A DNA stretch of 59,750 nt from a virus: the IMG/VR virus record IMGVR_UViG_3300027743_000032, positions 1 to 59,750 of that record. One strand, written 5' to 3'. Positions within the stretch are counted from its first letter, which is position 1; each line of letters starts with the position of its first letter. Below, piece after piece: positions 17,151 to 58,479 of the stretch. Both the position numbers and the translations under genes were made by a program. The notes below the pieces were generated by a model. The model was not told the origin of the DNA and ran no database searches. It saw nothing but the letters and a program-made list of their open reading frames with translations.

Positions 17151-18935
17151 GTGCCTTACGCTAGCAACGCAGAGCTTCCTGCCTATGTCAAGAAGCTGCC
17201 TGAAGGCAAGCAAAGCCAATGGCGCAGCATCTTTAACTCCTGTGTAAAAGATGGTGGTGACGAGAGCCGCTGCTTTCGCATGGCGAACGGTGTCGTCAAG
17301 CGCAAAGAGACAGAATGGGAACTCGGTGAGGAACCTGTCGAATCAGATCAAACTGAGTTGGACGCTGCTGAGAAGAACTATCAGTACGTCGAATCCTACG
17401 AGTACGAGAGTAGGAAACTTCCTCAGGATCAGGCAGGCTACAATCCTGTGGGCGGCGATAACAACAAAGCCTGCTCCAATTGCATGTTCTTCGTGTCCCC
17501 CGCACGGTGTACGGTTGTTAGCGGGGAGATTGCTCCCAACGGACTTTCTGAGCAGTGGCGGGCTACACCAGAATACAAGCCCGCGCCTGTTCCTGTGATC
17601 GTCGTCGGTGACGAGTGGCTCAACGAAGAAAAGCTCGCTCGCACAGAAATGTCGGCCAGCTCATTTGCATACATCGACAGTAACGGCGGGCGACATCTTC
17701 CTATACACGACGCAGCTCATGTACGTAACGCGCTCGCTCGCTTTAATCAGACTAAGTTCGAATCGGCCGACGCGAAGAAGCGGGCACGCGCGAAGATCAT
17801 GGCGGCCGCGAAACGCTTTGGCATCGAAACAGGCGGCTCTAAGTCTGTATTGGGGCGTTTAGCTGAGCTATTTACGTCCGGAACTCCTGACCCGGCCCCC
17901 GCCGAGGAGGGTGTGACAGCGCCCTCGCTTCCGGAGACGCAGGGCGTGTTCGGAGTTGTGAAACAGACAGACGGAAAGTTAAGATGGTTCGCTCGCTACT
18001 CTAATGCCTGGGAGGATCGAGACCAGGAAATCCTCACAGAAGCGGCGCACAAAGACTACATCGAGTGGGCGTACGAAACCGGAACGTTCCCAGAACTGTG
18101 GCTCTGGCATACTGGCGGTACTCGCTTTGGGGAAGCCGATTGGCTGGACTTCTCCGATGGGTTTGCCCATGCGAGCGGGCTGATCGACAATGGCAAGGAA
18201 TCTGTTGTCGAAGCGATATCAGCTAAGGACGTTGGTGTAAGTCACGGTTTCCTGTCCTTGCAGCAGGGGAAGTATGTTAGCCGGTATCGAACCTATGAGA
18301 TTAGCGTGCTGCCGAGAGAGTGGGCGGCTGTAGAAACGTCGGGTTTTAACGTGCTCGACGCCACCAAGGAGTCAGAAGTCATGGCGTTTACTGAGGAACG
18401 GCGAAAGTGGCTCGTAGAAGCTCTCGGTGAGGATGCGGTAGGCAAGCTGGAAAAGTCTACCGAGAGCATGGCTACGCAGCTCAAGGAACTCGGCGTCGAG
18501 TACAAGGAAGCCGAGGAAGCCAAAAAGGCCGACGCAGAGGCGAGTAGCGAAGGCTACAAAGCACTCGCTGAGCAGGTCGCTAGTCTGACTACCGTCGTCG
18601 GTCAGCTCGCAGGCGTCGTCACCGAGCAGAAGAAGCAGCTTGACGGCGTGCAGAAGTCCGACGACGAGAAGATCGAGGATGCGTTCCTGGCTCGCGTCGC
18701 CAAGGCGTTCGGTCAGAACGGCGGCGTCACACGTCCTACCGAGGACGCCAAGAACGTTGACGGCGCCGCTGCTACGCCCGCCGGCACAGAGCAGACCGAT
18801 TTCTTCAGCTCGATGATCGCGGAGCAGCTAGGCTACGCGACTAAGAATGCAGGAACCGCAGTTGGTACGCCAGCTATGGCTTCTGTGAATGTCGATGCCT
18901 CATCTCAGGGGCCGACGGAAGTTCGGGGAGAGTAA
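17151..18935 (+). CDS. Capsid maturation protease/scaffold fusion with ChaB-like N-terminus, 594 aa
   Basis: Several modules in one chain. Residues 1-50 resemble ChaB (LPAYVKKLPEGKQSQWRSIF). About 85-130 is a Cys motif domain (CSNCMFFVSPARC). About 165-225 resembles DUF6582 (HLPIHDAAHVRNALARFN). About 265-420 is a XkdF/prohead-protease-like region (GVVKQTDGKLRWFARYS, WLWHTGG, VSHGFLSLQ, YEISVLPREWAAVE). The remainder is a coiled-coil scaffold tail. The GTG start is 15 bases after the previous gene. Likely role: guiding and trimming procapsid assembly. Confidence 0.75.
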   Translation: MPYASNAELPAYVKKLPEGKQSQWRSIFNSCVKDGGDESRCFRMANGVVKRKETEWELGEEPVESDQTELDAAEKNYQYVESYEYESRKLPQDQAGYNPVGGDNNKACSNCMFFVSPARCTVVSGEIAPNGLSEQWRATPEYKPAPVPVIVVGDEWLNEEKLARTEMSASSFAYIDSNGGRHLPIHDAAHVRNALARFNQTKFESADAKKRARAKIMAAAKRFGIETGGSKSVLGRLAELFTSGTPDPAPAEEGVTAPSLPETQGVFGVVKQTDGKLRWFARYSNAWEDRDQEILTEAAHKDYIEWAYETGTFPELWLWHTGGTRFGEADWLDFSDGFAHASGLIDNGKESVVEAISAKDVGVSHGFLSLQQGKYVSRYRTYEISVLPREWAAVETSGFNVLDATKESEVMAFTEERRKWLVEALGEDAVGKLEKSTESMATQLKELGVEYKEAEEAKKADAEASSEGYKALAEQVASLTTVVGQLAGVVTEQKKQLDGVQKSDDEKIEDAFLARVAKAFGQNGGVTRPTEDAKNVDGAAATPAGTEQTDFFSSMIAEQLGYATKNAGTAVGTPAMASVNVDASSQGPTEVRGE

Positions 18936-18941
18936 AGTAAC

Positions 18942-20390
18942 ATGCCTCCTGGGGTGATGGACAAGCCGAGTGTCCTCGATCAGCTTCTGGTAGAACTTCA
19001 GCAGCGCGGTGGTACGAAAGCCACCGCAATGCCTCCAGTCGGCCCGTACATGCATGGGCCTGACGGGCTATGGTCGTATCCTGGTCTGGAACGCGCGGTA
19101 ATCAGCACGCGCGTACGTCCGCGTGGGCTGGCGGGCGCAATCCCATCGCGTGCGAACAACTCGATGAACCCGCTGTATCCCTATCTGACGGGGTTCGTCG
19201 AAGGCGCTGGAGCGCAGCCGGACGCAACGTGCGACGACTGCCCCACTCCCGGCCCGATGAAGAACTGCTTTCAGACGAGCGTGTTCGGGCGTTATTGCTA
19301 TCAGACCCGCACCCTAGATATTACTCGTATGGGTCAGATCATCAATCGGGGCGAGTTCACCGACCTGATGATCTGGAACGACCCAATCGGCGGGCCTGCG
19401 AACGCTCCTGGCGCAGCGGGCATCGTGCATCCCAACTCCACTCCGGGCAACATCAACCTCAACAACGAAGTCAACGTGCGGTTCGCGGAAGTAGGCGTTG
19501 CTTTCCAGAATAAGTTGATGCGTCAGGTCTGGGAAGGCAACCCCACCAACAACACACCTGGCGGCGGCTATCGTGAGTTCCCCGGTCTGGATATCCTGGT
19601 CGGTACCGGCAAGCGCGACGCTGTGACAGGAACCGCCTGTCCCAGCCTGGATAGCACCATCGTCAACGCAGCTGGGCAGGATACGGGCCAGCTCGTAGAC
19701 ACGCTCACGTACACGATGCGCTATCTGACTTCGTTGGCTACTTCGACCGGCCTGGCTCCGGCGACGTTCGCATTGGTGATGCGCGAGGAACTGTTCTTTG
19801 AGTTGACGGCTGCGTGGCCGTGCAACTACCTCACGTACCGCTGTGTGTTCAATTCCACCAACGACAACCTCCAGGGCAGCTTCGACATGGGCGATGCTAT
19901 CGCCATGCGCGATGCGATGCGCGCTGGTCAGTATCTCGTCGTTGACGGCGCTCGGTGGAACGTGATCGTAGACGACGCGCTGCCGATGAACGGTTCCGGT
20001 GGCAACTTCACCAGCGACATCTACGTGCTTCCGCTCACAGTGCAGGGCAACAAGTCCGTCCTGTTCTGGGAATACTTCGCGTGGAACGGCCCGAACGCTG
20101 CTCTTGCAGCTGAGACGCTGCGTGCGGCTCCGATCATGGGCAACTACTACTGGTCGGACGGCGGCCAGTACATGTGGCACATGAAGCCTCCGGTGAACTG
20201 GTGCGTGCAGTGGATCGGTTTGATCGAGCTGAGACTGATCCTTCTCACGCCGCATCTGGCAGCGCGGATCGAGAACGTCGCGTACTCCGCTCCGATGATC
20301 CCGCGTCAGCCGTTCTCCGGCGATCCCTACTTCGTCAACGGTGGTGTGACTGACCGCGACACCGCTCCGAGCTTCTACGGGCCGGCTTAA
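18942..20390 (+). CDS. Major capsid protein, 482 aa
   Basis: Assigned from position directly after the protease/scaffold gene and from length. Features include an N-terminal helical arm (VLDQLLVELQQRGG), a CDDCPTPGPMKNC cluster, FGRYCYQTRTLDITRMG (typical of HK97-fold E-loop/P-domain regions), and C-terminal WSDGGQYMWHMKPP and RQPFSGDPYFVNGG. GGGAG lies 11 bases before ATG 18942. Two strong hairpins follow its stop. Confidence 0.85.
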   Translation: MPPGVMDKPSVLDQLLVELQQRGGTKATAMPPVGPYMHGPDGLWSYPGLERAVISTRVRPRGLAGAIPSRANNSMNPLYPYLTGFVEGAGAQPDATCDDCPTPGPMKNCFQTSVFGRYCYQTRTLDITRMGQIINRGEFTDLMIWNDPIGGPANAPGAAGIVHPNSTPGNINLNNEVNVRFAEVGVAFQNKLMRQVWEGNPTNNTPGGGYREFPGLDILVGTGKRDAVTGTACPSLDSTIVNAAGQDTGQLVDTLTYTMRYLTSLATSTGLAPATFALVMREELFFELTAAWPCNYLTYRCVFNSTNDNLQGSFDMGDAIAMRDAMRAGQYLVVDGARWNVIVDDALPMNGSGGNFTSDIYVLPLTVQGNKSVLFWEYFAWNGPNAALAAETLRAAPIMGNYYWSDGGQYMWHMKPPVNWCVQWIGLIELRLILLTPHLAARIENVAYSAPMIPRQPFSGDPYFVNGGVTDRDTAPSFYGPA

Positions 20391-20472: not shown

Positions 20473-21042
20473 ATGGCGTACGAACTAGAATGGTTCAAGG
20501 GTCTTGAGGGTTTACGACCGCACAACGAGCGTGCGTTATGGGGTGTGTTCGCACACTTCGGACGCCCCGGTTCATACTGCGACATGGGCTGCGGTGACGG
20601 TTGGCTGGTGTACACGGCTCGTACAGCGGGTGTTCCGGTCTCTGTTGGTGTGGAAATCTCTCCTGACGCCTCGCAGGTAGCCCCAGCCGGAACAGATATT
20701 GTTGCACACGATCTGGGTAAACCTCTCGGTCTTGGGCGAATGTTCGACTTGGTTACTTCGTGGGAGGTAGCTGAACACCTTGAGCAATCTTGCGCTGATG
20801 AGTTTGTACGCAATCTGGCTCGTCATGTTGGTCGGTATCTGGTGTTTACTGCAGCCGATGTAGGGCAGGGTGGCTATCACCACGTCAATTGCCAGTCGAA
20901 AGAATACTGGCGTGATAAGTTCGTGCTAGCCGGACTACGCTATCTAGAAGAGGAAACCGCGGCGCTTCGCTCAACGTGGCAATGGACGGTCGGCCCGCTC
21001 GTATGGCTTCCCTCGAATGTTCAGGTCTTTAAAGTCGCATGA
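20473..21042 (+). CDS. Class I SAM-dependent methyltransferase, 189 aa
   Basis: Motif I is YCDMGCGDGW, then VGVEIS (acidic loop) and the post-motif WEVAEHLEQ, a layout typical of the methyltransferase_11/23 type. The start ATG 20473 has GGAG six bases upstream, immediately after the hairpin. It overlaps the glycosyltransferase gene by four bases. It lies between capsid and glycosyltransferase, so it may modify a sugar or a virion protein; the substrate is not visible. Confidence 0.85.
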   Translation: MAYELEWFKGLEGLRPHNERALWGVFAHFGRPGSYCDMGCGDGWLVYTARTAGVPVSVGVEISPDASQVAPAGTDIVAHDLGKPLGLGRMFDLVTSWEVAEHLEQSCADEFVRNLARHVGRYLVFTAADVGQGGYHHVNCQSKEYWRDKFVLAGLRYLEEETAALRSTWQWTVGPLVWLPSNVQVFKVA

Positions 21043-23717
21043 AAGTATTTATCGCACCTAACTTTCCGGGTGCGGACAGAGGCGAAGGCGGCATCAGAAG
21101 GGTCGTAGAAGCACAACGCCGCTGGCTGCCTAAGTACGGATACGACATCACGGACGACATAAAAGACGCAGACATCGTAGCACTCCACGCGGGAGAGTGG
21201 GTCGATCCTCCAGTCGGCGTGCCTGTTGTGTCGCATTGTCATGGCCTGTATTGGTCAGAATACAAATGGCCTTCGTGGGCAGATACCGTAAACAAAACGG
21301 TTATTAAAAACTTAAAGCAGGCGGATCGTATCACAGCTCCCTCCGAGTGGGTGGCAACCGCGATCAGGCGCAACACCTGGCTTAATCCGGACGTTCTGTA
21401 TCACGGCATCGAACCGGATGAGTGGCCTTCTATAGCAGAGAATCAGGGCTACGTACTCTGGAACAAGACGCGCCCTGATGTGATCTGTGATCCCGCTCCT
21501 GTCTCAGAACTCGCGGAACGGCGTCCTGATATTAACTTCACAACCACCTTCGTGGGCAGGGGTGTGACCGCGCCCAATATTAAAATCATCGACGTAGAAC
21601 CGTATAATCAGGCGAAATACAGGGTTCGTCACGCAGGAGTGTACCTTGCCACCACCAGAGAAACAATGGGGATTGGCACGCTGGAAGCTATGGCTGCTGG
21701 CGTCCCTATTCTGGGATACAATTGGGGTGGTCAGCCTGAGATTGTTGTTCACAAAGAGCACGGGTACTTGGCGGAGCCTGGCGACTACGATGATCTGGCG
21801 CTGGGCCTTGATTACTGTCTTGAGCACCGTGCGTATCTTAGTCAGCAAGCAAGAGCGCACGTCCTTGCTGAGTTCACCTGGGAACACTGGATTGAGCAGT
21901 ACGCCAAGTTATATACCCGCGTTCTCGAAGAGGCAAGAGGCCCTAAAGTCAGCGTAGTAATCACTAACTATAATCTGGGCGAGTTTCTCCCTGAAGCGGT
22001 GAATAGTGCCAAGAAGGAATTAGTTGGGAAACCGTACAAATCAGAAATTATCATCGTAGACGACGCCAGTACGGAGCCTCTGCCCGATGCAGTCACAAAT
22101 GATCCCTCTCTGCGTATTGTTAAAAATACAACGAACCTCTACCTCGCAGGTGCTCTTAATGTCGGCGTCCGGACCGCGCTCGGTCAATACGTTCTACTAC
22201 TTGATGCCGACAATCGTGTTAAAAATCTTCATTTATTAGTAGACGCTCTTGATAATGATAGATCGCTCGATATCGCCTACGGGAAGATGCAGGTTTTTGG
22301 CGGCAACTACAAAACTCCACTCATCTCGGATTGGCCGCCGAAAGAAGCGGATCATCTTCGTCAGCTCCAGCATAATAACCAGATCACATCTACAGCGTTA
22401 TATCGCCGTCGCTTGTTTACGTGGGTGGGTGATTACCGCGAACGCTGCCGTCTCGGTGAAGATGCTGACTTCTGGCTCCGGGCGCTCGCGGCCGGCGCGA
22501 GAGCGAGACGTGTGACTGATCTTGTCACACTTGAATACCGTGATCGTAACGACAGCGTGAGCCATCAGCACAAAGACTGGGAGTGGAATCGTTGGTACTT
22601 TTGGAGTGGCGGTCAGTATAAACTCGCAGGAGTAGGCGGGCCGATCTATATTCACGACAAGCCTAAAGTGTCCGTGATAATCCCTGTTGGGCCTGGACAC
22701 GAACGATATCTATTGGACGCTGTTGACAGTGTGCAGGCGCAGTCACAGGCATTCTGGGAATGGGAGTGTATTGTAGTCAACGATTCTGGTAACGAGCTAA
22801 AAGGTCTGCCTTCCTGGGTTCGTGTAACTCCCGGCGGGCGGGGAGTTTCACACGCCCGTAATAGGGGGATGGCATTAGCTAAGTCTGAATATATATTGTT
22901 CCTGGACGCTGATGACTATCTCCACCCGGAAGCTCTGTATCATCTGTATAATACACTTACCACAAGTAATTGCCATAACGTATTTGTGTATAGCGATTGG
23001 TTTGAGGTTGAGACGGGGAAGCGGCACGAAAGCCCGGATTTCAATCCAAAAACTATCTTCGAGAAGTTAGCCAATCCCGTCACAGCCCTTTACAGAAAAT
23101 GGGACTTAACTAAAAATAACGTACGGTGGGACGAATCGTTCGTCCACGGTTGGGAAGATTGGGACTTCGCCATCCAGGTCGCCGCTAAAGCAGGACTATG
23201 CGGGCTGCATCTGCGAGCGCCCTTGCTGCACTATAGAATAAAATCGGGCACACTACGTCACGAAGCTCGACTGCGTGCTGATGAGATTAAGCTCGCCATT
23301 CAGCATAAGTGGGCGGACTACATAAGTGGCGTGAAAGAGAACAGGAGCGAAGCTATGCCGGGTTGCGGCGGTTGCGGTGGCGGGCGTTATCCTAGCATAC
23401 TATCGAACGTGCCGCAGACTGGGCCGTTCGACGGCGTGGACATCGAGAACGACACCTCATTAGTTCTCTATACTCCGCCGCCGGAATGGACTGGTACACG
23501 GTCGTTTCTAGGGCGTGTGACACACAACCGTTACCGCTTCTCACCGGAACCTCCAGGGAACGTGCGTAGAGTGTACAACGTGGACGTGCCTGGCCTGCAA
23601 GCGTTGGGTTATTTCAGACCAGCCACGGTAGACAATAGTGACGTGGGGGCCGTCACACCACTAGCGTCTCCGGGGCCGCCATCTGATGAAGTGGTTGGGG
23701 GTGGAGGAGCGGCGTGA
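21039..23717 (+). CDS. Triple glycosyltransferase fused to a virion-type C-terminal domain, 892 aa
   Basis: Residues 1-300 are a GT-B/GT4-like transferase (HCHGLYWSE, VLYHGIEPDEWP, TTRETMGIGTLEAMAAG, GGQPEIV). About 303-520 is a GT2 domain (SVVITNYNLGEF, LLLDADNR, GEDADFWLRA). About 542-760 is a second GT2 domain (SVIIPVGPG, LFLDADDY, HGWEDWDFAIQ). From 773 comes a Gly/Cys-rich start (MPGCGGCGGGRYPS) and a small beta domain (LVLYTPPPEWTG, YRFSPEPPG, VDVPGLQALGYF) like those of head/decoration proteins. A capsid or tail glycosylating enzyme is likely by position. Confidence 0.85.
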   Translation: MKVFIAPNFPGADRGEGGIRRVVEAQRRWLPKYGYDITDDIKDADIVALHAGEWVDPPVGVPVVSHCHGLYWSEYKWPSWADTVNKTVIKNLKQADRITAPSEWVATAIRRNTWLNPDVLYHGIEPDEWPSIAENQGYVLWNKTRPDVICDPAPVSELAERRPDINFTTTFVGRGVTAPNIKIIDVEPYNQAKYRVRHAGVYLATTRETMGIGTLEAMAAGVPILGYNWGGQPEIVVHKEHGYLAEPGDYDDLALGLDYCLEHRAYLSQQARAHVLAEFTWEHWIEQYAKLYTRVLEEARGPKVSVVITNYNLGEFLPEAVNSAKKELVGKPYKSEIIIVDDASTEPLPDAVTNDPSLRIVKNTTNLYLAGALNVGVRTALGQYVLLLDADNRVKNLHLLVDALDNDRSLDIAYGKMQVFGGNYKTPLISDWPPKEADHLRQLQHNNQITSTALYRRRLFTWVGDYRERCRLGEDADFWLRALAAGARARRVTDLVTLEYRDRNDSVSHQHKDWEWNRWYFWSGGQYKLAGVGGPIYIHDKPKVSVIIPVGPGHERYLLDAVDSVQAQSQAFWEWECIVVNDSGNELKGLPSWVRVTPGGRGVSHARNRGMALAKSEYILFLDADDYLHPEALYHLYNTLTTSNCHNVFVYSDWFEVETGKRHESPDFNPKTIFEKLANPVTALYRKWDLTKNNVRWDESFVHGWEDWDFAIQVAAKAGLCGLHLRAPLLHYRIKSGTLRHEARLRADEIKLAIQHKWADYISGVKENRSEAMPGCGGCGGGRYPSILSNVPQTGPFDGVDIENDTSLVLYTPPPEWTGTRSFLGRVTHNRYRFSPEPPGNVRRVYNVDVPGLQALGYFRPATVDNSDVGAVTPLASPGPPSDEVVGGGGAA
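23355..23717 (+). CDS. Probable internally initiated 120-aa head-associated domain
   Basis: Inside the glycosyltransferase frame, AGGAG (23343-23347) sits seven bases before ATG 23355, an ideal start signal. The product is exactly the Cys/Gly-rich N-terminus plus beta domain that resembles small virion proteins. Either an ancestral separate gene lost the stop before it, or both the fusion and the free domain are made. Confidence 0.55.
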   Translation: MPGCGGCGGGRYPSILSNVPQTGPFDGVDIENDTSLVLYTPPPEWTGTRSFLGRVTHNRYRFSPEPPGNVRRVYNVDVPGLQALGYFRPATVDNSDVGAVTPLASPGPPSDEVVGGGGAA

Positions 23718-24067
23718 CTTACTTAGACGTGATAGTAGGTGGCGTCGCTACGTGGCGACTTACTCGTATGTTGTTAATGGAGAACGGGCCGTATCGAGTG
23801 TTTCGTCGGCTTCGGGAACTATCTGGCGTGGTATACGTGGACGACGAATCTTTAGAAGTCTCGTCGTTCAAGTACGAGATAACCATGTGTATGTGGTGTA
23901 TGTCAGTGTGGGTGGGGCTGGCATTGACCTTATTGCAGCGATTTGTTCCTGGGGGCCGGTGGTTTCTATTACCGTTCACCTACAGTGCGATTAATTCGAT
24001 GGTCGCACGGCAGTTAGAGTTGACCAAGAAGAAGGCCGATAGCTTCCCTGAGTTCGAAATCAAATGA
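23714..24067 (+). CDS. DUF1360-like membrane protein, 117 aa
   Basis: Fits the small DUF1360 family: an N-terminal VIVGGVATWRLTRMLLMENG, the diagnostic CMWCMSVWVGLAL, and a C-terminal LPFTYSAINSM helix. The GTG start overlaps the previous stop. Such genes occur in tailed-phage head modules but their role is not known; membrane association is predicted. Confidence 0.75.
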   Translation: MTYLDVIVGGVATWRLTRMLLMENGPYRVFRRLRELSGVVYVDDESLEVSSFKYEITMCMWCMSVWVGLALTLLQRFVPGGRWFLLPFTYSAINSMVARQLELTKKKADSFPEFEIK

Positions 24068-25353
24068 CAACTGCACTGCCCGCTGTTGATTCGACCATCG
24101 ATAGGATGTTCCCGTTCATCCATCTGCCTCTGGATCGGTTCTTTAGGATCGTATCCTATAGTCCGATCCTGGCGAATCAAGTTGTCATTATGTATAACGA
24201 GCTGCAACGGGATGTGGCTTGTTCCGATCCTGTGCTGCAGTATACCTGGCAGCCGCGTGGCGGTGGGCGTCCTGGTCGAGAAGAGATTGCACAAGCGATC
24301 CAGCAGGCGGAAGATACGATCTACAGGGCACTGAAGTTCAGTCCGTCCCCACGCTGGTTCACCGACGAGGTTGATCTGACTACGGCCCACAGATGGGGTT
24401 TCTGGCCGAACGGAGCGTTCGGTCTACGAACCAATAACTTTCATCTGATCGAACCTGGCGTAGAACGCTATAAGTATCTAGGCAGTCCACAGGTCACGTA
24501 CGATGACACCGACGGTGACGGCTATAAGGAAACCGCTACCCTTACTCTGGACAGCGTAGGGACGGGTGTGATCGACGCCAATGAGATTAGCGCGTTCCCT
24601 CCAGGTTACGGGCCAGACCCTGCTCTTGAGATTCGTCCTCTTAGAGTAGATTTTGATAGTCTCAATAATCAGATTAATATTACTGTCGCCAGGCATCTGC
24701 TCGCACGTTGGGACTTGCAGGAGCGTCTTGACGCGCAGGGCATCGACGGCATGGCGGATGTTAACTTCTATCTAGAGCTGGACATCTATCGACACTACAC
24801 CGATCCTAGCCAGGCTGTAGAGATTGTCTGGCCTTGTGGTGGTTGCGGTGTCTGTGCAGCGTGCGGAGTGCAGACTGCAACAGGATGCTTCACGATCACA
24901 GACCCACGCAACGGCTTGGTCAGAGTAAGCCCCGCACGTTGGATCGAAGATAGCTATTTCGCAAGTCTCGGTGCTGGTGCGGGTGCGTGGGACGTGCTGA
25001 GCTGCATATGGATACAAACTCCCGCCCGCATTAAACTGCACTACAGGGCCGGTTATATCGATAGCAGGCTTAAGCGACCGTTAGTCGAGATGGCTCCTGA
25101 GCTGGAGCGCGCTGTCGCGTTTCTTGCGCTGTCGTATCTTGATAGAGAGTGGTTAACCTGTGAACAGATACGTAATCTTCAAGCCCACTGGCGTCTCGAT
25201 CTGGCGAATCAGACGAGCAATGCCGCCATGAGCAACTCGTTTAAACTAGACCCCGATCTGCTCGCGTGTCCATTCGGAACAACTCGTGCTGCGCTGTATG
25301 CGTGGCGTGTGATCCAACCACTGATGGTCGGTCAAGCCGTCCTGAACGTGTAG
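24064..25353 (+). CDS. Putative head-tail connector protein, 429 aa
   Basis: Named from position between capsid and tail-tube genes. The central part is beta-rich (ATLTLDSVGTGVIDANEI); a cysteine cluster CGGCGVCAACGVQTATGC lies near residue 260; the C-terminus is helical (MAPELERAVAFLALSYLDRE), as in adaptor proteins. ATGA overlap with the preceding gene. Confidence 0.55.
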   Translation: MTTALPAVDSTIDRMFPFIHLPLDRFFRIVSYSPILANQVVIMYNELQRDVACSDPVLQYTWQPRGGGRPGREEIAQAIQQAEDTIYRALKFSPSPRWFTDEVDLTTAHRWGFWPNGAFGLRTNNFHLIEPGVERYKYLGSPQVTYDDTDGDGYKETATLTLDSVGTGVIDANEISAFPPGYGPDPALEIRPLRVDFDSLNNQINITVARHLLARWDLQERLDAQGIDGMADVNFYLELDIYRHYTDPSQAVEIVWPCGGCGVCAACGVQTATGCFTITDPRNGLVRVSPARWIEDSYFASLGAGAGAWDVLSCIWIQTPARIKLHYRAGYIDSRLKRPLVEMAPELERAVAFLALSYLDREWLTCEQIRNLQAHWRLDLANQTSNAAMSNSFKLDPDLLACPFGTTRAALYAWRVIQPLMVGQAVLNV

Positions 25354-25369: not shown

Positions 25370-26842
25370 GTGCCAGGTACAGCGTTCACGAATACGTACT
25401 CGCGTGTGTGGCTCATTGAAGGTGGGGCAGGGCCGGGAAGGAGACGTGATTACTTCGGCAACTGGAAAGCCGGCGCAATCTCATGGGACTTGGGCGACAT
25501 CACGACGATTCGTGAGCCAGACCCGAACGCCTACAATAAGTTCATCCGTACCGGTAGATATCGCGGTGAGCCTGGCGATCCTGAGCTGACGATCACAGCC
25601 CGCTATACGTTCCAGCGGTCGAGACTTCTCCGTATGGCACGCCTCGACTGCGAACACACGCTGCACGTTCACATGGGTCAGTGCGAGAATCCGCAGGACT
25701 TTCCGCGAGGGTGGGAAAAGACCCTCATTCTGGAAGGTGCTTCGATCAACTCATACGGCACCGAAGACTTGGGCGCGATGTCGCCTGACGAGAACGCTCC
25801 GGTCAACGAGGAAGTTCCGTTCGTCGGCACCGATCTCTACGAAGTCACACGTCTCACGTTCAGCGAGATGGCTGCTGCCATGACGACCGGCACCGTTCTC
25901 GACGTGTATGTGTGTGACAGCGCACAGTGCGGCGCGTGCGGTGTGGCGAGCGACGGCTGTCAGGTTGTGCTGGCTTTGGTCGGAGCAGTTCCCGGTTCGC
26001 CCGGTCTGACTTCGGGCCTCCTGGTCACAACCAACGGTGGCGGCTTGTGGACGGCAGTGGCGGGGCCTGCTGTTGCTGGTGATTCGCTCTTCTGCGCAGG
26101 CGACGTGGCAGTGGTTCTTTCAGAAGCCGACGGCGCACTGTATTACACCGACCTGAGTGATCTGAGTGTCGGTGTCGTTAACTGGACGCGCGTGGACAAC
26201 GGCTTCGCAGTTGGGGAAGGCCCGCTCGCTGCATGGTCGCTCGGTGCCAGCGAAACCTGGATCGCTGGTGCGGGTGGTACGATCTACAACAGCTCAGACC
26301 CCGCGCTTGGTGTGACGATCAGCAGTCAGGGCGCAACGTCGAATGATCTGAACGCCATCCACGCCGTCGATAGCCTGAACGTCGTCGCAGTCGGAGCCGC
26401 CAATACCGTGCTTCGTACGGCGAACGGTGGTGTGTCGTGGGGCATCGTTCCTGGCCCCGAGCCGGGCGCTGTTCTGACCAGCGTGTGGGTTCGCAGCCCG
26501 CTCGAATGGATCATTGGCACGGCGACCGGGCGGCTCTGGTACACGATCAACGGCGGCGGTACATGGGAGGAAAAGGGCTTCACCGGAGCCGGCACTGGCG
26601 TAGTGCAGGATATGGTGTTCGCTACGCCTTCTGTGGGGTACATGGCCCACTCGACCGGAACGGCAGGCCGTGTGCTTCGCACCATCGACGGCGGCTTCTC
26701 GTGGTACGTGCTTCCGGAAGGTGCTGGCTCTATCCCGGTCAACGAGTCGGTAAACCGTCTGGCGGTGTGTGACGATCCTAACATCCTGTACGCTGCGGGT
26801 GTCGGGAGCGGAGCTGACGGTATTCTGCTCAAGGCAGCGTAA
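25370..26842 (+). CDS. Tail tube protein fused to a beta-propeller, 490 aa
   Basis: Residues 1-180 fit a major tail protein (FTNTYSRVWLIEGGAGPG, GDITTIREPDPNAYNKF, VTRLTFSEMAAAM). A cysteine linker (CDSAQCGACGVASDGC) leads to a C-terminal propeller of BNR/Ycf48-like repeats: TTNGGGLWT, RTANGGVSWG, TINGGGTWEEKG, RTIDGGFSWY. GTG start with AGGAGG. The propeller would project from the tube surface, perhaps binding glycan or host polymer. Confidence 0.8.
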   Translation: MPGTAFTNTYSRVWLIEGGAGPGRRRDYFGNWKAGAISWDLGDITTIREPDPNAYNKFIRTGRYRGEPGDPELTITARYTFQRSRLLRMARLDCEHTLHVHMGQCENPQDFPRGWEKTLILEGASINSYGTEDLGAMSPDENAPVNEEVPFVGTDLYEVTRLTFSEMAAAMTTGTVLDVYVCDSAQCGACGVASDGCQVVLALVGAVPGSPGLTSGLLVTTNGGGLWTAVAGPAVAGDSLFCAGDVAVVLSEADGALYYTDLSDLSVGVVNWTRVDNGFAVGEGPLAAWSLGASETWIAGAGGTIYNSSDPALGVTISSQGATSNDLNAIHAVDSLNVVAVGAANTVLRTANGGVSWGIVPGPEPGAVLTSVWVRSPLEWIIGTATGRLWYTINGGGTWEEKGFTGAGTGVVQDMVFATPSVGYMAHSTGTAGRVLRTIDGGFSWYVLPEGAGSIPVNESVNRLAVCDDPNILYAAGVGSGADGILLKAA

Positions 26843-42447: not shown

Positions 42448-42713
42448 GGATTACGTCCCGCTTTCAGGTTTTCTGTGAACTGTGTCAGCTCTCGTTGTAC
42501 GCTGTCCATCATGTTAAGATCGCCCTCGTTCACTTCCTCGCCCGAAGTCAGATTGCTTATAATGCCTTCGAACAATGCAAGGGCACCTAAATAGAACGCG
42601 ATCTTGGTTTCGCGGCGCTGGACAGCATTTGCGCCTACCGGGTCTAGTGATAGGCGCACGTAATTCTTCCACGCGGTTTCGATGAGTTTATTTGGTGGTG
42701 CCAAGATTGTCAC
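42444..42713 (-). CDS. Hypothetical protein, 89 aa
   Basis: Unrecognised helical protein (IAFYLGALALFEGIISNLTS, MMDSVQRELTQFTENL). Its start lies inside the polymerase gene by 26 bases and its stop overlaps the next start as ATGA. It may be a small replication accessory. Confidence 0.65.
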   Translation of the reverse strand: MTILAPPNKLIETAWKNYVRLSLDPVGANAVQRRETKIAFYLGALALFEGIISNLTSGEEVNEGDLNMMDSVQRELTQFTENLKAGRNP

Positions 42714-45102
42714 CTACCTTCATGTCGATTCTGATAGACGGATATCCTTCGAAGCGTGGCTTCTCCATCACGCTTTTAATCAACGCCATCACTTCTTTAC
42801 GATAGCGTCGGTCGCTCTCTACGACGAGCGCATCGTGGATCATCAGGATGATATAGCTGTTATAGCGAGCAAGCAATGGCTGTAGTTCGACCATCGATAA
42901 TAAGCAATAGTCCGAGGCATTAGATTGGATCGGGAAGTTGATCGCCTGCCGTAGTGCCTTATGATCGAGTACAACCGGGAAGCGCATCACCCGCCCGGAG
43001 GGGGTTGTGATATAGCCCTGCTGTTGTACTTTCCGTTGTAGGTCAATCGTCCACTTACGATGAACAGGATACGTACGCCAGAAGTTATCAACAAACTTCC
43101 GAGCTTCACTAACAGTACAGCCAAGACCAACGGGGGGAGGACTAGAAAGCTTTTCAGCACCCTCGCCATACTGTAGTCCGAACCTGATCTTCTTGGCGTT
43201 CTGTCGCATTTGCGACCAGGTGGCCTTGTCGTGAAGTTCTCGTCTGGTGTTGAATGCGCCCTCTGCTGTTGCACTATGCACGTCTCCTGACTTTAGATGC
43301 TCCAGCAAAACAGGATCGCGTGATTCCGCCCAAGCGAGCCAGACTTCGATCTGATTATAGTCTGCCTCGACGATTTCATGAGTGTCGGTGTTGTGTGGGA
43401 TGATTACTTCACGCAGTCTAGCGTAGTCCGCACCTACTGTATAGTCTTTGGGGATGGTCTGCATGGCGGGATCGTGATAGGAAGTACGACCAGTTCGAGT
43501 TGTAGTAACGAACGCACTCGGATGCAGTAGACCGTCCCATTTAATATTACGCCACGCCGAATCAACATAATCGATCATCGTGTCTAGCGTGCGTAAGTCA
43601 CGTAGCTTATCGGCGAACGGGTGGTCGAGCCTATCGAGCGTTTCACGATCTAAGCTGGGTTCTCCGGTCTTACTGGAGAACTTGATAGGCTCCAGCCCAA
43701 TGAGATTAAAGAACAGCCGTCGCAACTGTGGGTTGCTCTGGAAGTTAACTTCATAATCTTCAGACCAACCGTATTCGTCACGCGCTTCCCGCTGCATGGA
43801 GGCTGTGACATCCTGCCAGCGTTCACACCAATCAATCGTCATTTGGCGCAGCTTGTCCTGATCGACATTGATGCCGCGCACCTGCATCTTGACGAACGCT
43901 CTAATAGCCGGAAGCAGCAGGCCGCTATAAAGAGGCTCCGTACCTTCCTCGATCATGCGTGGCCGGTGAATGTCCACGAGGCGTCGAGTGTAGGCTGCGT
44001 CTTTGGCGTTGTACTGATACAGCACGTCGTCGGGAAGTTGGTTCATCTTCCCTTTGTAGTATTTCTTGACTTCTTCGTTGTACCAGCCGGCCCCAAGATA
44101 TTCTCGCGCGTTCTCTTTCAGACCGTGCCGGCCGGGTCGTTCGTCAGTGCAGACCGACATCAGCATGGTGTCGTTTACTAAGGGGAGCATCGTGCCGAAG
44201 TAGTTGTACAGTCCGTTGATGTCGTACTGGCCCGCCTGGAACGTCCACTGCACGTTCAAGGGCCACACGAAAATGAACTTTGGAAGCTTGCAGTTAGTAT
44301 CTAGACACTTGTTGTGCTGACGCCAGCCTCGTACGTGCGTGCCGTTTCTTATGCACAGAGGCAGGATATCACGCGGGAATACCCAAGTACGTTCTAGGCC
44401 TGCGTTGTCGATATAACTCAGGGCCAAACACAACAACTGGTCAGAATAAGCATCGATCAGTTCGATATCTGGGTTTGATGTCTCGATGTCTATGGCGACT
44501 GGTCGATCTTTGGGCAGGCCGCTTAATATCTGCTGGCCGTGCGACAGGCTCTTAACGAGGTTGTAACTGACGTGAGCTGGCTGTCCGTCGGGTTCCCATT
44601 CGACGATGCGTTGGATTTTGCACAGGTCACGGATAATGTCTTGAACCGCATCCATGCTCTCGGAACGCAGAGCGAACGCGGGATGGTGTGTGTCCATGAC
44701 GTAGCAATGATGCACGTCTGACCAAACGACCGAACCACGACTGCCTTTCCGGCGTGGTAGGCGTGTGACAGCCTCGTGTGCGATCTCACCACAGGTGATT
44801 ACCAGCTTGGGTTTGTACTGCTGGATTTCTAGGTCTAGTCTGGGAGCGCACTCTGACAGTTCTTCCGGACTAGGATAGTTGTTGAACCAACAGATCGCGT
44901 TCGTTGTGTAGACCTTGTTACGATCCCAGCCTGAGAACTTGAGCAAATCATCCAGTAACCGGCCGGATGCCCCCGTAAATGGACGCTTCGTGCGAGTTGC
45001 TTCGTCGTGGCCGGGAGCAATTCCGACCACGACTACTCCGTGATCAGGGTTGCCGAACCCCCTGATCCCGTGTTCGTGACACATTCTACCTGTGACGTTC
45101 AT
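42688..45102 (-). CDS. DNA polymerase I family protein with N-terminal uracil-DNA-glycosylase-like domain, 804 aa
   Basis: Residues 1-165 match family-4-type UDG: GIAPGHDEATRTKRPFTGAS (motif 1), Cys71 and Cys85 in place of iron-sulfur ligands, DTHHPAF (motif 2). The 3'-5' exonuclease follows (AIDIET near 204, YNAKDAAYTRRL), then polymerase A motifs: EADYNQIEVWLAWAE, NAKKIRFGLQYGEGAEKL and IHDALVVE (about 755). The start is set at MNVTGRMCHE. A UDG domain before polymerase A is also known in SPO1-like phages. It replicates the phage genome and may check for uracil. Confidence 0.93.
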   Translation of the reverse strand: MNVTGRMCHEHGIRGFGNPDHGVVVVGIAPGHDEATRTKRPFTGASGRLLDDLLKFSGWDRNKVYTTNAICWFNNYPSPEELSECAPRLDLEIQQYKPKLVITCGEIAHEAVTRLPRRKGSRGSVVWSDVHHCYVMDTHHPAFALRSESMDAVQDIIRDLCKIQRIVEWEPDGQPAHVSYNLVKSLSHGQQILSGLPKDRPVAIDIETSNPDIELIDAYSDQLLCLALSYIDNAGLERTWVFPRDILPLCIRNGTHVRGWRQHNKCLDTNCKLPKFIFVWPLNVQWTFQAGQYDINGLYNYFGTMLPLVNDTMLMSVCTDERPGRHGLKENAREYLGAGWYNEEVKKYYKGKMNQLPDDVLYQYNAKDAAYTRRLVDIHRPRMIEEGTEPLYSGLLLPAIRAFVKMQVRGINVDQDKLRQMTIDWCERWQDVTASMQREARDEYGWSEDYEVNFQSNPQLRRLFFNLIGLEPIKFSSKTGEPSLDRETLDRLDHPFADKLRDLRTLDTMIDYVDSAWRNIKWDGLLHPSAFVTTTRTGRTSYHDPAMQTIPKDYTVGADYARLREVIIPHNTDTHEIVEADYNQIEVWLAWAESRDPVLLEHLKSGDVHSATAEGAFNTRRELHDKATWSQMRQNAKKIRFGLQYGEGAEKLSSPPPVGLGCTVSEARKFVDNFWRTYPVHRKWTIDLQRKVQQQGYITTPSGRVMRFPVVLDHKALRQAINFPIQSNASDYCLLSMVELQPLLARYNSYIILMIHDALVVESDRRYRKEVMALIKSVMEKPRFEGYPSIRIDMKVGDNLGTTK

Positions 45103-45104
45103 TG

Positions 45105-45341
45105 TTAGTTTTCTTGTGCTTTCGCGTGTGATGCTGGGTTTATACTTAGAATATCCAGGTCGTCCTGAGTTAGTTCTATGCCTGCTTCCTGCTTGCACTC
45201 AGGGCATATGTCGGTCATGATCGCAGCCGCTTTCCTCGCCGCAACGTCTGCGTCGTTACAAGCGAAGCCTATGCTTGCGCCGCATAGATATTGTGTTTCT
45301 ATGACCCAGATTTGTTCTGGGGGGTCTTTCTTGTCTTGCAT
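45105..45341 (-). CDS. Small zinc-binding protein, 78 aa
   Basis: CPEC plus earlier cysteines (YLCGASIGFAC) may form a zinc site; the C-terminus is acidic (LTQDDLDILS). Its stop lies two bases before the polymerase start. Not recognised. Confidence 0.65.
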   Translation of the reverse strand: MQDKKDPPEQIWVIETQYLCGASIGFACNDADVAARKAAAIMTDICPECKQEAGIELTQDDLDILSINPASHAKAQEN

Positions 45342-57699: not shown

Positions 57700-58479
57700 T
57701 CAGAAGAAAGGGAACCGTTCGTCAGCTTTGGCCGCGTCTTTGTGGTGCCTCCGATCACGTTTGGCTGGCATAGGATTAATACGAGGCTCGTTGCGTGGTA
57801 CGAGATACCGAAGTCCTATCGCTTCTAAGGCGGCTGATGCCCAGCGTTGGCGATTGAGCAGGTCACGCTTGTCCTGCGCGGGTGTGAGTTTGTGGGCGAG
57901 TGCGATAGGTTCGAGACGTGAGAGGATTAATCTGATCTTGCCGGTGGGGAATGATCTGACCCTGCGCCTCCTGCCTTGATAGTTGCGTGAGCCGGTGCCT
58001 AGTTCGTCGTCATTCCACACCGGAAGCTGGTTATCCTCGACCCGAGCATCGTTGTACTCTGGCAGGTCAGGTTCGATGTTGTGTCGATTGTCGATCCAGT
58101 GTTCTGGAAGGGGATTGGCGTCGAGCAGGGCTATTAAGTAAACCGAGACGCCGAGATAATACGCACGACCGTTATAGCGGTAAAGTTCGGTCTGTTCGTT
58201 GAAGTACGCCCACGCTTCGTCTGATAGTGCGACGTTCACATGAGGCTGCTTCGGTGGCGGGTCTGCGAGGCGAAAGCTGTGTTTGGGTCTGGCGTACGTA
58301 CCCGACAGGCTTGATGTGTATAGATACACGAACGCTGCGTCAAGTGCTGACTCTAGCGATAAGTGAAAGCTGAGAATATACGCTAGGTGTGGCGGGTCAG
58401 CATTGAACGACAGTATGACGTTGAAGTTGGGTCGGCTCTCGACTACTGTGAGTGTGACTGGGATTGGGGTATCGCTCAC
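57700..58479 (-). CDS. Conserved hypothetical protein, 259 aa (right copy)
   Basis: The counterpart of 505-1287; about 97 percent identical, one residue shorter at the N-terminus (MSDTPIPV for MNNEPPIPV). Its true start is confirmed by the agreement of the two copies from here on. Confidence 0.85.
   Translation of the reverse strand: MSDTPIPVTLTVVESRPNFNVILSFNADPPHLAYILSFHLSLESALDAAFVYLYTSSLSGTYARPKHSFRLADPPPKQPHVNVALSDEAWAYFNEQTELYRYNGRAYYLGVSVYLIALLDANPLPEHWIDNRHNIEPDLPEYNDARVEDNQLPVWNDDELGTGSRNYQGRRRRVRSFPTGKIRLILSRLEPIALAHKLTPAQDKRDLLNRQRWASAALEAIGLRYLVPRNEPRINPMPAKRDRRHHKDAAKADERFPFF

Follow-up and report, generated by a model that had tools for sequence, protein, structure and literature searches.

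Genes of the head operon

We analyzed a window of 59,750 nucleotides (positions 1 to 59,750 of record IMGVR_UViG_3300027743_000032), a siphovirus-like record of an uncultured tailed phage. Its virion genes run in the order TerL (9438), an apparent protease (17151), a probable capsid (18942), methyltransferase (20473), and a long fusion gene (21039), and continue with a DUF1360 gene (23714), a probable adaptor (24064), a probable tail tube (25370), a tape measure (27739), and a Dit-like gene (32882). These surroundings place the fusion gene inside the head operon, where the genes from the protease to the adaptor, as well as the domains and signals within the fusion, are encoded on the plus strand. 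Alignment of the terminase, capsid, adaptor, and glycosyltransferase (GT) sequences against viral contigs recovered a single relative, IMGVR_UViG_3300011400_000098 (58463 bases), and one terminase fragment of 23% identity, and bacterial genomes, aligned to the terminase and the GT, yielded no relative; the contig scans need short exact peptide matches and may miss distant relatives.

A probable capsid maturation protease with a scaffold-like C-terminal part (17151 to 18935) was assigned from sequence features and position. The probable major capsid protein (18942 to 20390; 482 amino acids, 94% identical in the relative), the probable head-tail adaptor (24064 to 25353), and the probable tail tube (25370 to 26842; 93% identical in the relative) were assigned by position, their sequences giving no convincing library match. 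The adaptor is Cys-rich (CGGCGVCAAC) and weakly matches phrog_442 (0.21), and the C-terminal part of the probable tail tube appears beta-propeller-like (PSII_BNR/Ycf48; E = 0.0026). In addition, clustered cysteines (CDDC, CGGC, CGGCGVCAAC, and CxxxxCGAC) are seen in the probable virion proteins at 18942 to 20390, 23355 to 23717, 24064 to 25353, and 25370 to 26842, where they possibly form metal or disulfide links.

The fusion gene overlaps both of its neighbors. Upstream, a SAM methyltransferase gene (20473 to 21042; Pfam Methyltransf_23, 1.1e-9) extends 4 nt into its start. This methyltransferase probably begins at ATG 20473 and not at TTG 20410, since the former has the better Shine-Dalgarno (SD) sequence and the relative begins at a matching MAYE. 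Downstream, a gene for a DUF1360 small protein (23714 to 24067; Pfam, 1e-5; phrog_781, 2.8e-9) opens with a GTG that overlaps the fusion stop. Following the synteny of DUF1360 into Gordonia phages, we observe a portal downstream of DUF1360 and recognized no counterpart of the C-terminal domain of the fusion there.

A glycosyltransferase fusion conserved in two phages

The fusion gene (21039 to 23717) is a single uninterrupted frame of 892 codons, free of internal stops, that encodes a 100.3-kDa protein of 892 amino acids consisting of a GT-B domain, two GT-A domains, and a C-terminal domain (C-domain). The GT-B domain (residues 1 to 298; 21039 to 21932) is GT4-like, with a Pfam Glycos_transf_1 match above cutoff (4.9e-14; 52.7 bits versus 26.4), PDB matches to the GT4 entries 2jjm and 3mbo, and an E-x7-E motif (E208-x7-E216). 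Two GT2-like domains follow, GT-A1 (residues 303 to 540; 21945 to 22658) and GT-A2 (residues 541 to 755; 22659 to 23303). GT-A1 is recognized by Pfam Glycos_transf_2, with its best stretch at residues 305 to 460 and two Glycos_transf_2 stretches in all (1.8e-40; 139 bits versus a cutoff of 23.3), and GT-A2 by Glyco_tranf_2_2 (6.8e-15 at residues 545 to 638) and the PDB entry 6h1j. Both copies hold an intact DxD motif and catalytic ED (D389-A-D391 and E474-D475 in GT-A1; D623-A-D625 and E706-D707 in GT-A2), and the catalytic motifs of all three GT domains are identical in the relative. The PDB sequence matches agree with the Pfam layout; a first-pass annotation had read the locus as one protein joining a GT-B and two GT-A domains with intact DxD-type motifs, and Pfam, motif inspection, and the open frame all bear this out.

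GT-A1 and GT-A2 may represent an old duplication, since they share 33% identity across 94 residues. Multiple GT domains in one chain are also characteristic of chondroitin synthase and heparosan synthase B, and the PDB entries of the chondroitin synthase KfoC (2z86) and of heparosan synthase B (8vh7) match residues 299 to 415 and 299 to 392, respectively. Unlike in these two-domain polysaccharide synthases, however, a GT-B precedes the two GT-A domains here, and a phage-specific domain comes last.

The relative carries the same fusion, likewise stop-free. Its contig ends fall within the gene, leaving 483 codons at the right end and 416 at the left, and the two pieces join with a 3-base overlap, consistent with a circular map. 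The two proteins are 84% identical up to residue 485 and 79% identical beyond it, with the C-domain at 77%. Synonymous sites have reached saturation in GT-A2 and the C-domain (pS, 0.80), pN there is about 0.15, and the linker that separates them (residues 756 to 772; 23304 to 23354) differs in length between the phages by exactly three codons. Judged from these alignments, purifying selection acts on the enzyme part as well as on the C-domain; the latter is kept by selection as a protein, because it combines 77% identity with a low pN relative to pS. The same comparison indicates that the fusion predates the separation of the two phages and is no sequencing error of one assembly. A homologue with a stop codon before residue 773, which would have spoken against the first-pass annotation, was searched for, and the sole homologue found lacks such a stop.

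Synonymous codon sharing between the phages is about 30 to 60% over most of the gene. Codons 361 to 480 (22119 to 22478, within GT-A1) include two 40-codon blocks in which 86 to 88% of synonymous codons are common to both, possibly as a result of recent recombination or an overlapping constraint.

The C-terminal domain and its internal start signal

The C-domain (residues 773 to 892; 23355 to 23717) comprises 120 amino acids (12.5 kDa) and is the predicted product of an internal start. It begins with MPGCGGCGGG, contains a conserved middle (YTPPPEW.GTRSF.GR.T.NRYRFSPEPPGNVRRVYNVDVPGL..LG.FRPAT), and ends in a Gly/Pro-rich tail. We obtained no match for it in Pfam, PHROGs, a PDB profile search, or phage records, and tblastn against phage records with both phages' versions returned no homologue. 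A protein scan of viral contigs together with a DNA pattern for MPGCGGCG found the C-domain only in the relative phage, and a C-domain homologue encoded as a separate gene was absent from everything searched. Four other matches to the DNA pattern have translations unrelated to the C-domain. There is a weak match in Microbacterium phage Goodman (E = 6), and a match to a human-faecal scaffold (E = 1) was treated as chance, as it lies on the opposite strand of a long open frame beside housekeeping-like genes.

The first-pass annotation had described the C-domain as resembling small head proteins and suggested a structure search of residues 773 to 892. AlphaFold models of the domain are poor (pLDDT of 36 and 49 in two runs), and Foldseek with these models of pLDDT below 50 gave E values of at least 1.8 and no reliable fold match. 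The proposed resemblance to small head or decoration proteins is thus borne out neither by sequence nor by fold, and the idea of a virion-type domain derives from its position in the head operon.

The internal start signal consists of AGGAG (23343 to 23347), a 7-nt spacer, and ATG 23355, which opens the C-domain exactly at the domain edge; the first-pass annotation had pointed to this signal, and it is conserved in the relative. Both AGGAGC and the ATG are identical in the two phages, inside a linker that varies in length and sequence. Its duplex with the anti-SD has an energy of -6.6, similar to that of many virion-gene starts in this phage (-6 to -10), and the fusion gene's own start is weaker (-3.2). 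The mRNA around the internal start is fairly open (0.52 unpaired versus a gene mean of 0.40).

These properties have to be weighed against the unlikely alternative that the locus encodes the fusion only, with the C-domain acting as a targeting, oligomerization, or acceptor tail of the enzyme and Met773 being an ordinary residue at which nothing starts. The absence of any stop within the frame and its conservation as a single protein fit this alternative, as does the lack of a separate C-domain gene noted above. Internal ATGs preceded by a strong SD-like site are also not rare: by SD energy, ATG 23355 ranks 9th of the 237 internal ATGs in the genes tested in the window, eight others scoring at least as well (9 of 237 at -6.6 or better). 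What argues against it is that AGG-AGC-N6-ATG is kept at the domain edge where linker and codons vary. When a strong SD site is demanded in both phages, ATG 23355 is tied for 3rd to 5th place among the 125 internal ATGs that the two phages share. At the codon level, there are eight shared Arg positions at which one phage or the other uses AGG; a single one has AGG in both, and that one is the SD. The ATG ranking and the Arg-codon measure each give a p of about 0.04 to 0.05, a level set by the fact that only two genomes carry the gene, and the two measures are not independent; the comparison suggests, but does not prove, selection on the internal start.

The top-ranked conserved ATG is 18381 (codon 411 of the protease gene), which stands behind AAGGAG, is the strongest in the comparison, and is located where the coiled-coil, scaffold-like region begins, just before the capsid gene. 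From its sequence, 17151 to 18935 is an apparent protease/scaffold gene with an internal start. Mu-like phages have internal in-frame scaffold starts within their protease genes (PMC4378225), and the ranking thus picks out a known type of site, because 18381 sits where these phages start the scaffold.

Possible roles of the fusion in virion assembly

In phage lambda, the gpC protease and Nu3 share a scaffold domain, which is thought to recruit the enzyme to the particle as it forms. The signal at ATG 23355 is of the lambda C/Nu3 type, with an in-frame SD and start at a domain boundary that is conserved in the two genomes compared. The reading that we favor, with a probability of roughly 40%, is that the fusion is an enzyme that glycosylates the virion and carries its own tether to the assembling particle, a domain that is also made as a free small protein. 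As particles assemble, the three-domain GT and the upstream methyltransferase would furnish a virion protein with a short glycan, possibly a methylated one, with the GT-B and the two GT-A domains adding sugars in turn and the methyltransferase capping or modifying the added sugars. The C-domain would be an assembly-associated module in two forms: a long form present in few copies, in which it is the tail of the 100-kDa enzyme, and a short form of 12.5 kDa, made from AGGAG/ATG 23355 in more copies, in which it stands alone. By analogy with lambda gpC/Nu3, the common C-domain would direct the enzyme to the particle under construction. The main idea of the first-pass annotation, a structural protein whose fused form tethers a glycosylation machine to the particle, is plausible and in part supported; its unsupported part is the presence of these products in the virion. 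That a virion protein and its glycosylating enzyme form one gene, with the domain alone in particles and the fused form carrying the enzyme, is possible, though we hold it tentatively.

As in lambda gpC/Nu3 and the Mu-type genes, an enzyme is followed by an in-frame domain with its own SD and start codon. Here, however, the enzyme is a glycosyltransferase and not a protease, and the C-domain, which is placed after rather than before the capsid gene, is no coiled-coil scaffold. A second parallel comes from cluster O mycobacteriophages, in which the interval from the portal to the protease gene holds an O-methyltransferase, two GTs, and a GlcNAc-transferase (gp35, gp36-37, and gp38 in Corndog) (PMC4351075). 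This cassette is reported to modify the capsid and the tail tube (PMC11600133, which cites Freeman 2023). By gene content, the locus described here likewise matches a virion-glycosylation cassette, with GT and methyltransferase genes in a virion operon and, as in Corndog, one methyltransferase followed by three GT units. However, whereas the Corndog enzymes are separate genes in the portal-protease interval, here the GT units form one polypeptide after the capsid gene, to which a C-terminal extra domain and an internal start are added. A brief literature search turned up no account of a phage glycosyltransferase fused to an assembly domain that has a separate start.

Other points count against the favored reading. 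The C-domain has no homologue among known virion proteins, and its fold could not be modeled. Moreover, the separate GTs of cluster O were seen in infected cells and were absent from purified virions (PMC4351075), so that virion glycosylation can proceed without a need for tethering.

Another explanation is that the enzyme acts on the host surface, on teichoic acid or another glycan, for example in a superinfection block, and that its operon position serves late expression. TarP-type and GtrB-type GTs, which modify host surface polymers, are among the nearest phage matches, and the PDB match 6h1j is described there as a probable GlcNAc transferase. Yet GT2 similarity does not give the acceptor, we see no membrane segment or lipid-carrier flippase partner beside the fusion, and the capsid-adaptor position with a methyltransferase fits virion-modifying cassettes; we therefore regard a host-surface target as rather improbable. 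More improbable still is a C-domain that forms a small virion protein in its own right, behind an ancestral enzyme that lost its stop, the long product being tolerated read-through without tethering: an SD and an ATG do stand at the front of the domain, and the tight GTGA overlap with the following gene is usual for operons, but the fusion was kept over long divergence with a linker indel of exactly three codons, and a useless in-frame linkage would decay.

Glycosylated phage virions are known. If the favored reading is true, an enzyme and an assembly domain encoded in one frame, in a ratio governed by the internal start, would directly answer how phage glycosyltransferases find the particle, and the logic of protease/scaffold genes would extend to another class of assembly enzyme.

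Elsewhere in the window, a DNA polymerase A with a fused N-terminal uracil-DNA glycosylase domain is encoded at 42688 to 45198 on the minus strand (Pfam UDG, 7.1e-27; DNA_pol_A, 3.2e-62). Two minus-strand genes, at 505 to 1506 and 57700 to 58479, both align with a single frame in the relative (27 to 28% identity) and are possible paralogues. Finally, a Thr-Pro-rich protein is encoded at L001 3751-5088, in a style common in Chloroflexota that is a possible hint of the host.
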